From the NCBI RefSeq assembly GCF_030815145.1, contig NZ_JAUSWJ010000001.1, forward strand, positions 3,240,001 through 3,304,000: a DNA stretch of 64,000 nucleotides, written 5' to 3'. Below, piece after piece: positions 57,389-63,034 of the stretch. This DNA comes from Kaistia geumhonensis. Lineage in GTDB: Bacteria > Pseudomonadota > Alphaproteobacteria > Rhizobiales > Kaistiaceae. The position numbers and the translations under genes are program-made. A model generated the notes under the pieces. It was not told where the DNA came from and did no database searches. It saw only the letters and a program-made list of their open reading frames with translations. Position 1 is the stretch's first letter. The number at the start of each line of letters is the position of its first letter.

Positions 57389-58978
57389 TCAGGCGGCGAT
57401 GGCGGCGCCGTCGGAGCGCGGGTCGGTCGCGCCGATCGAGCGGCCGTCGCGGCGGCGCACGATCGCGCCGGCATGGCCCATCGTGTCGGAATACGCCTCG
57501 TCGATGACCTCGAGTTCATGCCCCGCGCGTTCCAGCGCCAGCACCAGATCGGGATCGAAGCGGTTCTCGAGGCGGAGGTGGAGATGGTCCGAGCCCCAGG
57601 TCCGGCCGAGCAGCCAGCGCGGCGCCGCGATCGCCTCGGCGGGATCCATGCCGAACAGCGCGTGGCGGGTGAAGACGGCCGCCTGCGTCTGCGGCTGGCC
57701 TTCGCCGCCCATCGTGCCATAGGGCATCACGCGGCCGTCCTTGAAGCGGGCGAGGGCCGGGTTCAGCGTGTGGAAGGGCTTGCGGCCGGGCTCCAGCGGA
57801 TTGCGCGCGGCGGGATCGAGATGGAAGCTCGCGCCGCGGTTCTGCCAGGTGACGCCGGTCGCCGGCAGCACGCAGCCCGAGCCGAACTCGAAGAAGATCG
57901 ACTGGATATAGGAGACGGCGAGGCCGTCGCCGTCGACGGCGCCCATCCAGACCGTGTCGCCCTTCTCGGCGACCTGAGGCCAGGGCGCGGCGTGACGCAT
58001 GTCGATCGCCGCCGCTTCCCGGGCCAGCACGCGCTCCGAGAGGTGGATCGAGACGTCGCCGGCGAAGACCGGGTCGGTCACATGCTTGTCGCGCAGCAGG
58101 AAGGCGCGCTTGGTCGCCTCCACGAGGCCGTGCAGATGCTCGAAGCTCTCGCCGCGCTTGACGCCGAGCCGCTCGAAGATGCCGAGGATGAGCAGCGAGG
58201 CGAGGCCCTGCGTCGGCGGCGGCGCGTTGTAGACGGTGGCATCGGAGAGCGTCACGGAGAGCGGCGCGCGGAAGCGGGCCTCGTGGCGGACGAGGTCCTC
58301 GCGCGTGACCGGGCTGCCGATCCGCTCGAGATCGTCGGCGAGCGCCTTGCCGACATCGCCGCGGTAGAAATCCATGAAGCCGGCATGGGCCAACTGGTCG
58401 AGCGTGTCGGCGAGGCGTGGCTGGTGGATCGTGTCGCCGATCGCGGGCGGCTTTCCCTCCGGCAGGAACACGTCGGCGAAGCCCGGCGCAGCGGCGAGGG
58501 CGTCATGATGCAGCGCCGTCAGGCGGGCCTGCGAGCGGGTCACGGCGATGCCGTTCTTGGCATGGGCGACGGCGTCGGCGAGCAGGGTCTTAGGATGCTG
58601 CGCGCCGCCGAGGCTCTTCGAGAGTTCGTGCGCCAGATGCCAGCCGGAAACGGCGCCGGCGACCGTGATCGCCGCGTCGGCGCCGCGCACCGGCATGCGC
58701 TCGTGTCCCTTGTCGCGATAGGCGCGGATGCTCGCTCCGGCGCCGGCCGCGCCGCAGGCCTCGATATAGCGCGGCTCCTTGCCCGGCTCGCGGATCAGCC
58801 AGAAGCCGTCGCCGCCGATGGCGTTCATGTGCGGGTAGACGACGGCGATGGTGGCCGCCATGCCGATCATCGCCTCGATGGCGTTGCCGCCGGCGCGGAG
58901 GATCTCGGCCCCCGTCTCGGCCGCCGCCGCATGCGGGGCCACCACCATTCCCTTTTCGCCGACCACTGTCTCGACCAC
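57389..58978 (-). CDS. Gamma-glutamyltransferase-family Ntn hydrolase (oxamate amidohydrolase HpxW-like)
   Basis: A 529-residue Ntn-hydrolase. The catalytic Thr T342 is in EKGDTVWMGAVDGDGLAVS, at the self-cleavage site. There is no signal peptide, unlike secreted glutathione-hydrolysing members. The stretch VVYPHMNAIGGDGFWLI resembles HpxW, the oxamate amidohydrolase, from memory. The start is GTG at 58978, with GGAGG six bases upstream. An amidase gene follows after about 100 bases. Confidence 0.88.
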   Translation of the reverse strand: MVETVVGEKGMVVAPHAAAAETGAEILRAGGNAIEAMIGMAATIAVVYPHMNAIGGDGFWLIREPGKEPRYIEACGAAGAGASIRAYRDKGHERMPVRGADAAITVAGAVSGWHLAHELSKSLGGAQHPKTLLADAVAHAKNGIAVTRSQARLTALHHDALAAAPGFADVFLPEGKPPAIGDTIHQPRLADTLDQLAHAGFMDFYRGDVGKALADDLERIGSPVTREDLVRHEARFRAPLSVTLSDATVYNAPPPTQGLASLLILGIFERLGVKRGESFEHLHGLVEATKRAFLLRDKHVTDPVFAGDVSIHLSERVLAREAAAIDMRHAAPWPQVAEKGDTVWMGAVDGDGLAVSYIQSIFFEFGSGCVLPATGVTWQNRGASFHLDPAARNPLEPGRKPFHTLNPALARFKDGRVMPYGTMGGEGQPQTQAAVFTRHALFGMDPAEAIAAPRWLLGRTWGSDHLHLRLENRFDPDLVLALERAGHELEVIDEAYSDTMGHAGAIVRRRDGRSIGATDPRSDGAAIAA

Positions 58979-59214
58979 GACGCGCCTCCGAACTCTGCCG
59001 AAAGCCTGCTTACGGGAAACGGCGCGGCGCCAAAAGCCGAATCGAGCCGCTGCCCGACGATCGGGCAGACGCTGCCCGCGCGAAGGGCAGTGTGCGCTTT
59101 GTGGAAACAGTGGGTGAAAGGTGGCGTCGAAGGTGCGAAAAGCGCGGAATTCCGTGGCTTTTCCGGGGCTGCGCCAGGCTGGCGAGATTTTCTTTGCGCG
59201 AGGTCAAAAAGCGC

Positions 59215-59243
59215 TTGAATGCGACGGGCGATCGTCATACCTA
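59215..59243 (+). promoter_or_regulatory. Possible promoter of the speF leader
   Basis: TTGAAT (59215-59220) lies 17 bases before TACCTA (59238-59243), a weak fit to sigma-70 boxes. A start near 59250 would put the folded leader at the transcript's 5' end. This is a guess from spacing. Confidence 0.3.
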
Positions 59244-59249
59244 GCGCTT

Positions 59250-59460
59250 GCCCAATTATCGCACGTGCCTGTGGTTGCGTGCCGACCGGTGGGGCTCCGG
59301 ACAAGAGGCCGGGGCGACGCCCATGTGGATCCCGAAAGGGCCACGAAGGAGTCCGGGAGTGATCCCGGAAAGGTCGGCAGCCGGAAAGCGAAACCGGTGA
59401 ACTCCGTCTCCGCGGAGGACGCGACTTGAAGCAACGACGTAGCGGGCTTTTTTGGTCTCT
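59250..59460 (+). ncRNA. Structured leader, speF motif candidate
   Basis: Between the HpxW-like gene and the ornithine decarboxylase lies a folded stretch. GCCGACC (59281-59287) pairs with GGTCGGC (59372-59378) and encloses a domain. Inside it, CTCCGGAC (59295-59302) and GTCCGGGAG (59351-59359) can pair, while CCGGGA/TCCCGG (59353-59358 and 59363-59368) make a competing perfect hairpin with loop GTGA. CCGG arms follow at 59381 and 59394. A run of six T lies at 59448-59453. Rhizobial speF genes are known to carry a conserved leader called the speF motif, and the place fits. Two mutually exclusive stems suggest a switch. Confidence 0.75.
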
Positions 59461-59737
59461 AACGGCTCTCCATCGGCCGTGGTCACTGAAGAGGCACTAC
59501 TTCCTTGCCGGGCGTGCGGATCGGGTCATCCCGCTCCAAGCGACGGCGGCGCTCAAGGATCCTCCTGACGATCCCTGACGACCGTCACCCGCGAAAACCT
59601 GCCGGCTCCGCCGGCAAGACGGCGCTTCGTCACCGTTCCGGCCCGCGTCCATAGCGGCCGGCGCGAGGGCTCGGCTCCGCTTCGCCGTATCGCAACGCTG
59701 ATCGGGCCTTTTCGCCGGCCCACCGGGAGTTCCTAAG
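59461..59737 (+). other. Distal 5' UTR of the speF transcript
   Basis: The 277 bases before the decarboxylase start hold no open gene that I can support. One perfect hairpin is visible: GCCGGC (59601-59606) and GCCGGC (59610-59615) around TCC. It has no U-tract. The ribosome site GGGAG lies just before the ATG at 59738. Confidence 0.4.
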
Positions 59738-60871
59738 ATGACCGCTCGCATCATCGACTTCCTCGCGACCCGACGTCCCGAGGGCCCCTGCCTCGTGGTC
59801 GACCTCGATGTGGTGCGGGAGAATTACCTCGCCTTCGCGCATGCGATGCCCGACACGCGGATCTTCTATGCCGTGAAGGCCAATCCTGCGCCGGAGATCC
59901 TGCGCCTGCTCGCCTCGCTCGGTTCGAATTTCGACTGCGCCTCGGTCGCCGAGATCGACATGGCGCTCGCCGCCGGCGCGACCCCCGACCGGATCTCCTT
60001 CGGCAACACGATCAAGAAGGAGCGCGACATCGCCGCTGCCTTCGAGCGCGGCATCTCGCTCTATTCGGTCGATTGCGAAGTCGAGGTCGAGAAGGTGGCG
60101 CGCGCCGCTCCCGGCATGCGCGTCTTCTGCCGCATCCTCTGCGACGGCGCCGGCGCGGAATGGCCGCTGTCGCGCAAGTTCGGCTGCGAGCCCGAGATGG
60201 CGGTCGGCGTGCTCGAGCATGCGCACCGGCTGGGCCTCCATGCCTATGGCATCTCGTTCCATGTCGGCTCGCAGCAGGGCAACACCGAGGCCTGGGACGG
60301 CGCGCTCGCCTCGGCCGCCGGCATCTTCGGAACGCTTGCCGAGCGCGGCATCCAGCTGTCGATGGTCAATCTCGGCGGCGGTTTCCCGACCCGCTACCTG
60401 AAGCCCGTTCCGGGCGTCGAGAACTACGGCTCGTCGATCGACCAGGCGCTGAAGCGGCATTTCGGCAACCGCATCCCGGAGACGATCATCGAGCCGGGCC
60501 GCGGCATGGTCGGCAATGCGGGCATCATCAAGTCCGAGGTCGTGCTCATCTCCAGGAAGAGCGACCGCGAGGACGATCCGCGCTGGGTCTATCTCGACAT
60601 CGGCAAGTTCGGCGGCCTCGCCGAGACGATGGACGAGTCGATCCGCTACCCGATCCGCACCGCCCATGACGGCGATGCGGTCGAGCCCTGCATCCTCGCC
60701 GGCCCGACCTGCGATTCGGCCGACGTGCTCTACGAGAAGACCCCGTACAACCTGCCGGTCTCGCTTTCGATCGGCGACGAGGTCCTGATCGAGGGCACCG
60801 GCGCCTACACGACGACTTATTCGGCCGTCGCGTTCAACGGCTTCGAGCCGCTCGCCGCCTACGTGATCTGA
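59738..60871 (+). CDS. speF: Ornithine/lysine decarboxylase, fold-type III PLP family
   Basis: A 377-residue decarboxylase of the eukaryote-like ODC group. The PLP lysine lies in IFYAVKANPAPEIL, the phosphate-binding region in NLGGGFPTRY and EPGRGMVGNAG, and the C-terminal Cys-Asp active-site motif in GPTCDSADVLYEKT. It would make putrescine (or cadaverine). The gene carries the long leader and is followed by GNAT (13 bases) and homospermidine synthase. Confidence 0.95.
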   Translation: MTARIIDFLATRRPEGPCLVVDLDVVRENYLAFAHAMPDTRIFYAVKANPAPEILRLLASLGSNFDCASVAEIDMALAAGATPDRISFGNTIKKERDIAAAFERGISLYSVDCEVEVEKVARAAPGMRVFCRILCDGAGAEWPLSRKFGCEPEMAVGVLEHAHRLGLHAYGISFHVGSQQGNTEAWDGALASAAGIFGTLAERGIQLSMVNLGGGFPTRYLKPVPGVENYGSSIDQALKRHFGNRIPETIIEPGRGMVGNAGIIKSEVVLISRKSDREDDPRWVYLDIGKFGGLAETMDESIRYPIRTAHDGDAVEPCILAGPTCDSADVLYEKTPYNLPVSLSIGDEVLIEGTGAYTTTYSAVAFNGFEPLAAYVI

Positions 60872-61600: not shown

Positions 61601-63034
61601 ATGGCGAGCTGGCCGGTCTATGGTCGCATCGATGGTCCCGTGGTGATCATCGGTTTCGGGTCCATCGGACGCGGCATCCTGCCCCTGATCCGACGGCACT
61701 TCGCGCTGGACCGGTCGCAGGTGATCGTCGTCGAGCCGGGCGACGAGAATGCCGGATTGCTCGCAACCTTCGGGGCGCGCCATGTGCGGATCGCGCTGAC
61801 GCGCGAGAATTATCGCGACGTCCTCGTGCCGCTCCTGACAGGGGGCGAGGGCCAGGCCTTCTGCGTCAACCTCTCGGTCGATACCTCCTCGCTCGACATC
61901 ATGAAGCTGACGCGCGAACTGGGCGCGCTCTATATCGACACCGTCATCGAGCCGTGGCCGGGCTTCTATTACGATCACAAGGCCGATCCCGCCTCGCGCT
62001 CCAACTATGCGCTGCGGGAGGAACTGCTCGCCGAGAAGCGTGCCCATCCGGGCGGGCCGACCGCCGTCTCCTGCTGCGGCGCCAATCCCGGCATGGTCTC
62101 CTGGTTCGTGAAGCATGCCCTGCTCGACGTCGCGCGCGACCTGGGCATGGAGTTCGACGAGCCGAAGAGCCGCCGCGAATGGGCCGAGCTGATGCGGGCG
62201 ACCGGCGTCAAGGGAATCCACATCGCCGAGCGCGACACGCAGCGCTCGCGCAACCCGAAGCCGCTCGACACCTTCGTCAACACCTGGTCCGTGGACGGCT
62301 TCGTTTCGGAAGGGCTGCAGCCGGCGGAGCTCGGCTGGGGCACGCACGAAAAGTGGATCCCCGACCATGCCCGCGCCCATGATACCGGCAGCGGCGCGGC
62401 GATCTTCCTGCTCGGCCCCGGCGCCGATACGCGCGTCCGCTCCTGGTGCCCGACACCGGGTCCGCAGCTCGGCTATCTCGTGACGCATAACGAGGCCATC
62501 TCGATCGCCGATCATTTCACTGTCCGCGAGGAGGGCAAGGTCGTCTACCGGCCGACCTGCCACTACGCCTATCATCCGTCCAACGACGCCGTCCTGTCGC
62601 TGCACGAGATGTTCGGCCGCGCCGGCAAGGCGCAGAGCCGCCGCCACATCCTCTCCGAGGAAGAGATCATCGCCGGCCGCGACGAACTCGGCGTGCTGCT
62701 CTACGGCCATGCGCTCAACGCCTACTGGTACGGCTCGCGTCTCACCATCGACGAAGCGCGGCAGAACGCGCCCTACCAGAACGCGACGGGCATGCAGGTG
62801 ACCTCCGCCGTCATCGCCGGCATGGTCTGGGCGCTCGAGCATCCCGCCGCCGGCATCGTCGAGGCCGACGAGATGGACTATCACTTCTGCCTGCGCATCC
62901 AGCGGCCCTATCTCGGCACCGTCGAGGGCGTCTACACCGACTGGACGCCGCTCACCGACCGCCCCGGCTTCTTCCCCGAGGATATCGACCCGAGCGACCC
63001 CTGGCAGTTCCGCAACGTGCTGGTGCATTCGTAG
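61601..63034 (+). CDS. hss: Homospermidine synthase
   Basis: A 477-residue enzyme that joins two putrescines into homospermidine, NAD-dependent, typical of alphaproteobacteria. Rossmann motif VVIIGFGSIGRGILPLI is near the start, then VEPGDENAGLL. The central YIDTVIEPWPGFYYD and SCCGANPGMVSWFVKHALL are highly conserved. The ATG at 61601 has AAAAGGAG upstream. It takes putrescine from the decarboxylase upstream. Confidence 0.96.
   Translation: MASWPVYGRIDGPVVIIGFGSIGRGILPLIRRHFALDRSQVIVVEPGDENAGLLATFGARHVRIALTRENYRDVLVPLLTGGEGQAFCVNLSVDTSSLDIMKLTRELGALYIDTVIEPWPGFYYDHKADPASRSNYALREELLAEKRAHPGGPTAVSCCGANPGMVSWFVKHALLDVARDLGMEFDEPKSRREWAELMRATGVKGIHIAERDTQRSRNPKPLDTFVNTWSVDGFVSEGLQPAELGWGTHEKWIPDHARAHDTGSGAAIFLLGPGADTRVRSWCPTPGPQLGYLVTHNEAISIADHFTVREEGKVVYRPTCHYAYHPSNDAVLSLHEMFGRAGKAQSRRHILSEEEIIAGRDELGVLLYGHALNAYWYGSRLTIDEARQNAPYQNATGMQVTSAVIAGMVWALEHPAAGIVEADEMDYHFCLRIQRPYLGTVEGVYTDWTPLTDRPGFFPEDIDPSDPWQFRNVLVHS

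Follow-up and report, generated by a model that had tools for sequence, protein, structure and literature searches.

An ar45/speF leader RNA upstream of the ornithine decarboxylase gene of Kaistia geumhonensis: two conserved, mutually exclusive folds and a possible transcription attenuator

Introduction

The enterobacterial speF leader (SpeFL) is an ornithine-sensing leader peptide. In alphaproteobacteria, the speF element was described by Corbino et al. in 2005 and is held in Rfam as RF00518 (PMC1273637). According to that report, the outermost pairs of the speF stem are absolutely conserved, and in-line probing showed no binding of ornithine, lysine, diaminopimelate, putrescine, cadaverine or spermidine to the A. 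tumefaciens leader; homospermidine does not appear in the ligand list given there. The 5' half of the element was independently found in S. meliloti as the small RNA SmrC45, whose start was mapped and whose end was assigned to the U-run (PMC2780559). SmrC45 is 148 nt long and was classed as a trans-sRNA (PMC7143759), and it co-purifies with Hfq (PMC2848018). In Bartonella (B. bacilliformis), ar45 was seen on a northern blot apart from a speF transcript of >700 nt (PMC7717549). Both S. meliloti and B. bacilliformis are known to make a small transcript of its own that ends at the U-run. Since 2005 the speF leader has remained an orphan, and ar45 was catalogued separately as a trans-acting small RNA of unknown function; no mechanism for either was found in the literature searched. 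Another RNA linked to polyamines, the spermidine riboswitch, is a variant of a SAM aptamer according to its abstract (PMC10853860).

Results and discussion

Identity and genome context of the leader

Positions refer to the window, the whole stretch of 64,000 nt of Kaistia geumhonensis DNA that was analysed, and features lie on its plus strand unless stated otherwise. The Rfam covariance model of ar45 (RF02347) matched positions 59250-59451 with 47.4 bits (E 3.4e-7, gathering threshold 40), and that of the speF leader (RF00518) matched 59460-59571 with 54.6 bits (E 1.1e-10, gathering threshold 37), covering the full length of the model (1-153). Genome surveys returned one match of each family per genome, and ar45 is likewise single-copy here. 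The end of ar45 and the start of speF were 9-10 nt apart wherever both match lists were compared. Because of this constant gap, we regard the two as parts of one element. Given the matches to both families, the finding is a known orphan element, here in its Kaistia copy; judged by these matches, the region is the alphaproteobacterial ar45/speF leader RNA, known but unexplained, upstream of a polyamine-synthesis gene. A preliminary description of this DNA had recognised a rhizobial speF leader motif of unsettled ligand before an ornithine decarboxylase and had proposed the speF covariance model as a check. Both the recognition and the check held. The span that it had called speF, 59250-59460, is part of the same leader element but corresponds to the ar45 half, as RF00518 only starts at 59460.

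The start block, the core and the U-run end are the same as in ar45/SmrC45 (RF02347; PMC2780559, PMC2848018, PMC7143759), and the gene context and conserved blocks are the same as in the speF element of Corbino et al. (PMC1273637). The Kaistia ar45 copy, known here from its sequence, differs from the RF02347 model by an insert some 70 nt long or longer.

As in the context described for RF00518, the leader precedes a COG0019 ornithine decarboxylase gene (59738-60871; fold III, PLP), the closest solved relatives of whose product are lysine/ornithine decarboxylases (PDB 5gjm, E 7e-61). The nearest decarboxylase in the genome collection was 99% identical and came from a metagenome bin labelled Bosea, and five named Kaistia species came next. 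Downstream of the decarboxylase lie an acetyltransferase-like gene and, in the same locus, a homospermidine synthase gene (61601-63034; PDB 4plp, E 1e-233). On the minus strand, a gamma-glutamyltransferase-like gene (57389-58978) is transcribed away from the leader.

A putative promoter, CTTGAA-17 nt-ATACCT (59214-59242), places the transcript start near 59250. A simple E. coli consensus scan did not call it; a -35 CTTG and a CTATAT-like -10 were kept at this position across the leader alignment.

Two known types of control were considered for this leader. Like enterobacterial SpeFL, it would be a leader that controls an inducible ornithine decarboxylase, but the Kaistia leader lacks a leader peptide: no short reading frame of the SpeFL type is conserved in the leader core, because the spacing of the core blocks varies by single bases. 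The frame TEEAxxxC..CG in the speF core was ruled out by such single-base length changes. The spermidine riboswitch shares with the present leader RNA control linked to polyamines, but it is a different RNA according to its abstract (PMC10853860), and the leader had no Rfam match to the spermidine riboswitch or SAM-aptamer type.

The apical domain and its insert

The apical domain (59273-59426) comprises P3 (59273-59280/59419-59426) and everything inside it, including the P4 insert (59281-59378). The insert is closed by GCCGACC (59281-59287) and GGTCGGC (59372-59378) and holds hairpin A (59294-59300/59309-59315), hairpin B (59352-59358/59363-59369) and a further stem. The preliminary description had reported this closing stem, the hairpin CCGGGA (59353-59358)/TCCCGG (59363-59368), a competing pairing of CTCCGGAC (59295-59302) with GTCCGGGAG (59351-59359) that has one bulged G, and a T6 run (59448-59453), and all of these letters were confirmed in place. 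Furthermore, the 59275-59380 domain folded at -58.7 kcal/mol, compared with -42.1 +- 3.1 kcal/mol in shuffles (z -5.4, 0/200). Since the fold is far more stable than the shuffles, the structure is real.

The same description had proposed that hairpin B and CTCCGGAC/GTCCGGGAG form a polyamine- or ornithine-sensing riboswitch within the insert, which we now consider highly improbable. Both pairings are present in the letters, and the alternative is 97% pairable in Kaistiaceae, albeit through wobbles. However, in an alignment of 16 Kaistiaceae leaders (A1), which served to find compensatory changes in the insert stems, both partners had changed in five pairs of the local stems and in no pair of the alternative, so that the anticipated compensation was seen for the former and not for the latter. 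When the alternative was forced, the energy was -40.3 versus -49.9 kcal/mol, a cost of 9.6, and its predicted probability was 0. It is also no longer than expected by chance, as 42% of the sequences obtained by dinucleotide shuffling of the 98-nt domain contained a helix of at least that length. The insert is missing or different elsewhere: in 159 leaders the core blocks were separated by 13 to 248 nt, leaders L154, L160 and L192 had no apical domain, and hairpin B was confined, among the 159, to Kaistia and one sister genus. Because the apical domain is variable or missing across leaders, the insert is a lineage-specific, dispensable decoration and not the switch. The published in-line probing, in which the A. 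tumefaciens leader bound none of the six ligands (PMC1273637), also speaks against ornithine or polyamine sensing. Finally, the T6 run is not tied to the two noticed stems but belongs to the outer ar45 fold, directly after P1 and 70 nt past the insert. The CTCCGGAC/GTCCGGGAG stem was thus rejected as the switch on covariation, energy, chance length and distribution. The broader idea of a switch between folds stays plausible, with the difference that the conserved exclusive pair is P1/U6 and a long downstream stem.

The loop of hairpin A (59294-59315) carries ACAAGAGGC, which resembles GAAGAGGC of the speF core; this loop motif was present in 69 of the 159 leaders, from several families.

P1, the U-run and the conserved core

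P1 consists of four G-C pairs between GCCC (59250-59253), the predicted first bases of the transcript, and GGGC directly before U6. GCCC/GGGC was found in 152 of 159 leaders, and the covariation of P1 itself is thin because the two strands are nearly invariant. Compensatory variants were clear in L105 (ACCC/GGGU) and probable in L207 (CCGUC/GACGG). The P1 stem is irregular and adjoins an asymmetric loop, followed by U6. A U run of at least five was present in 149 of the 159 leaders, leaving ten without. The terminator scan called no local intrinsic terminator before T6, and a simple local terminator was dropped as a candidate.

The core strand CGCACGUGCC (59260-59269; internal loop and P2) was unchanged in 148 of 150 non-redundant leaders, and AAGCAACGACG (59429-59439) was present in 149 of the 150. 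A pairing of CGCACGUGCCU (59260-59270) with AGGC and CGUGCG of the speF core was rejected, as the 5' block is invariant and the partner varies without compensation.

About 20 invariant bases lie in the P1/P2 internal loop, beside the expression platform and within a variable periphery. This arrangement would suit a true riboswitch with the same two states, in which the loop binds homospermidine or another metabolite and so stabilises P1. The homospermidine synthase of the locus and the absence of homospermidine from the published ligand list (PMC1273637) are in line with this reading. We nevertheless regard it as doubtful, since that study found six pathway metabolites negative and there is no known ligand.

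The long stem across the ar45/speF junction

The strand that holds GUAG, C, GGGC (the 3' strand of P1), U6 and GGU (59439-59456) is also the 5' strand of a long stem. Its partner is ACUGAAGAGGC-A-CUAC (59485-59500). The stem of about 15 bp spans the ar45/speF junction and encloses P7 (59462-59480), a hairpin with the loop UCUCCA; the P8 hairpin, GGAUCGGGUCAUCCCGCUCC, follows at 59519-59538.

We counted pairs in an alignment of 23 diverse leaders made without structure (A2). A covariance model of the long stem (R1) built from A2 recovered 98 leaders, in which the pairs were recounted (A3). The A3 counts lean towards the long stem since this alignment was fitted to the structure, and the structure-free A2 agrees with them. 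The outer pair was UA in 44, GC in 28, AU in 13 and GU in 7 of 93 leaders, and 98-99% of the cells of the outermost and U-run helices were paired in A3. For the null, the observed number of changes of each column was placed at random on the decarboxylase tree. Against this phylogenetic null, the outer helix, P7 and P8 each covaried with p=0.001. The covariation score of the U-run helix was not significant (p=0.29) because the helix is too conserved, but its broken pairs numbered 15 versus 61 expected (p=0.002). This helix is kept with other letters in L105 (GUCUC/GAGAC), L192 (GGU/AGAC) and L006 (CCUUUG/CAAAGAGG), and in L154 and L160 one U and one A were lost together. Three U-G pairs of the U-run are kept in the long stem although C-G pairs would be stronger, which suggests a second constraint on the U's.

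The published model, RF00518, begins partway into the long stem, with ACUGAAGA unpaired. The outermost pairs, absolutely conserved in the account of Corbino et al. (PMC1273637), covary in our leaders, and the stem excludes P1 of ar45. The GGCA/UGCC helix of RF00518 was rejected, since it is broken by sequence in L105 and L192, both of which have the long stem intact. The boundary between RF00518 and RF02347 cuts a conserved helix (59439-59500); the element would be better captured by one model covering both families.

Downstream of the speF core and before the decarboxylase there is a second UCCA-loop hairpin, P9 (59638-59661); its stem had a mean of 5.9 pairs, compared with 1.4 in shuffles (57 leaders). 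Its loop is of the UCUCCA type, like that of P7, and could pair with a Shine-Dalgarno sequence. The leader might accordingly control translation, with the UCUCCA loops of P7 and P9 pairing with GGGAG of the decarboxylase Shine-Dalgarno and the long stem positioning them. The two hairpins are conserved and the loop CUCC is complementary to GGAG, but any CUCC pairs with any Shine-Dalgarno, and we find this explanation rather improbable.

Mutual exclusion of the two folds

P1 and the long stem cannot coexist as nested helices. In folding of the window sequence, the probability of P1 was 0.93-0.99 when the RNA ended at U6, about 0.7 seventeen bases further on and 0.0 by 59515. Across the 159 leaders, folding gave P1 a probability above 0.5 in 98% when the RNA ended at the U-run and in 1% when it included the long stem; in the latter state the U-run was paired in 97%. 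The leader has, then, two mutually exclusive conserved folds of the kind expected of a riboswitch, and the conserved competition is between P1/U6 and the long downstream stem, not between the stems noticed earlier. Both folds, their conservation, the covariation of the long stem and the exclusion in folding come from the present analysis, and the new point is that a covarying helix joins two Rfam families and excludes the closing stem of ar45.

A model of transcription attenuation

We propose, with a probability of about 0.5, that this bistable leader of the ornithine decarboxylase gene acts as a transcription attenuator. RNA polymerase would start at about 59250, and GCCC would pair with GGGC before U6, so that P1 closes the ar45 domain. 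This closure would favour release at the U-run and yield ar45, possibly also as an Hfq-bound small RNA. On read-through, the GGGC/U6 strand would pair instead with ACUGAAGAGGC...CUAC, some 35 nt further downstream, to form the long stem. The long stem would dissolve P1, sequester the U-run and represent the fold of the decarboxylase mRNA. The likely sensor is the invariant internal loop CGCACGUGCC/AAGCAACGACG beside P1, to which the apical domain would be peripheral. The small RNA, its approximate 3' end and its Hfq binding are carried over by analogy from the literature on S. meliloti; termination at U6 in Kaistia, the sensor, the signal and any role in trans are what we infer.

One doubt is that P1, with only 4 bp, would usually be rated a weak intrinsic terminator. 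Another is that ten of the 159 leaders have no run of five U. In addition, the long stem forms after the U-run and cannot stop termination by the same polymerase; it is only a read-through fold, and the downstream stem comes too late for the usual antiterminator role.

The small RNA could also arise otherwise. Without attenuation, ar45 would either be processed out of the long transcript, RNase III cleavage within the long stem being one example, or be made as a separate RNA. It would then act in trans, and the stem in the leader would only shape mRNA stability. The binding of ar45 to Hfq in S. meliloti (PMC2848018), the roughly 15 bp of stem across the junction and the Bartonella ar45 seen separately from the longer speF transcript (PMC7717549) agree with this. 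However, cleavage needs neither the U-run of at least five in 149/159 leaders nor the kept U-G pairs, and P1 sits exactly against the U-run. We therefore judge processing unlikely.

Returning to attenuation, we tentatively view ar45 and speF as one device that Rfam has split through its key helix. Its first four bases would be the upstream arm of the terminator, the U-run of the terminator would double as a strand of the read-through stem, and one promoter would give rise either to the Hfq-bound small RNA or to the decarboxylase mRNA. With the joining helix, two Rfam families that lacked an explanation can be brought together in a single, testable model of attenuation in the polyamine synthesis of many alphaproteobacteria. 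The helix also points to the bases that should be mutated and to construct boundaries that might be misleading.

Distribution of the element

The RF00518 speF match was found in 86 of 199 genomes of the order. Of 337 genomes sampled over the class, 16 matched the long-stem model, and these included members of several families outside the order. The leaders among them that were read by eye begin with the same core, have an apical domain that is much shorter, and lie upstream of a decarboxylase. A decarboxylase match was present in the locus of all 93 leaders matched by the model, and likewise for the inspected leaders outside the order; since all sampled leaders were collected through similarity to the decarboxylase or the RNA model, an unrelated gene context could be missed.

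Ten leaders from Azospirillaceae and relatives (L131-L136 and L138-L141), located 170-310 nt before the decarboxylase ATG, mostly keep the CGCACGTGCC...TGCAACGACG core without the U-run and the speF core. Instead, they have a strong Shine-Dalgarno sequence followed by a frame of 28-53 codons with the conserved start MVDVVVGGP.... This frame terminates 87-142 nt ahead of the decarboxylase, in 9 of the 10 with an identical -SI stop. The frame is a candidate leader peptide.
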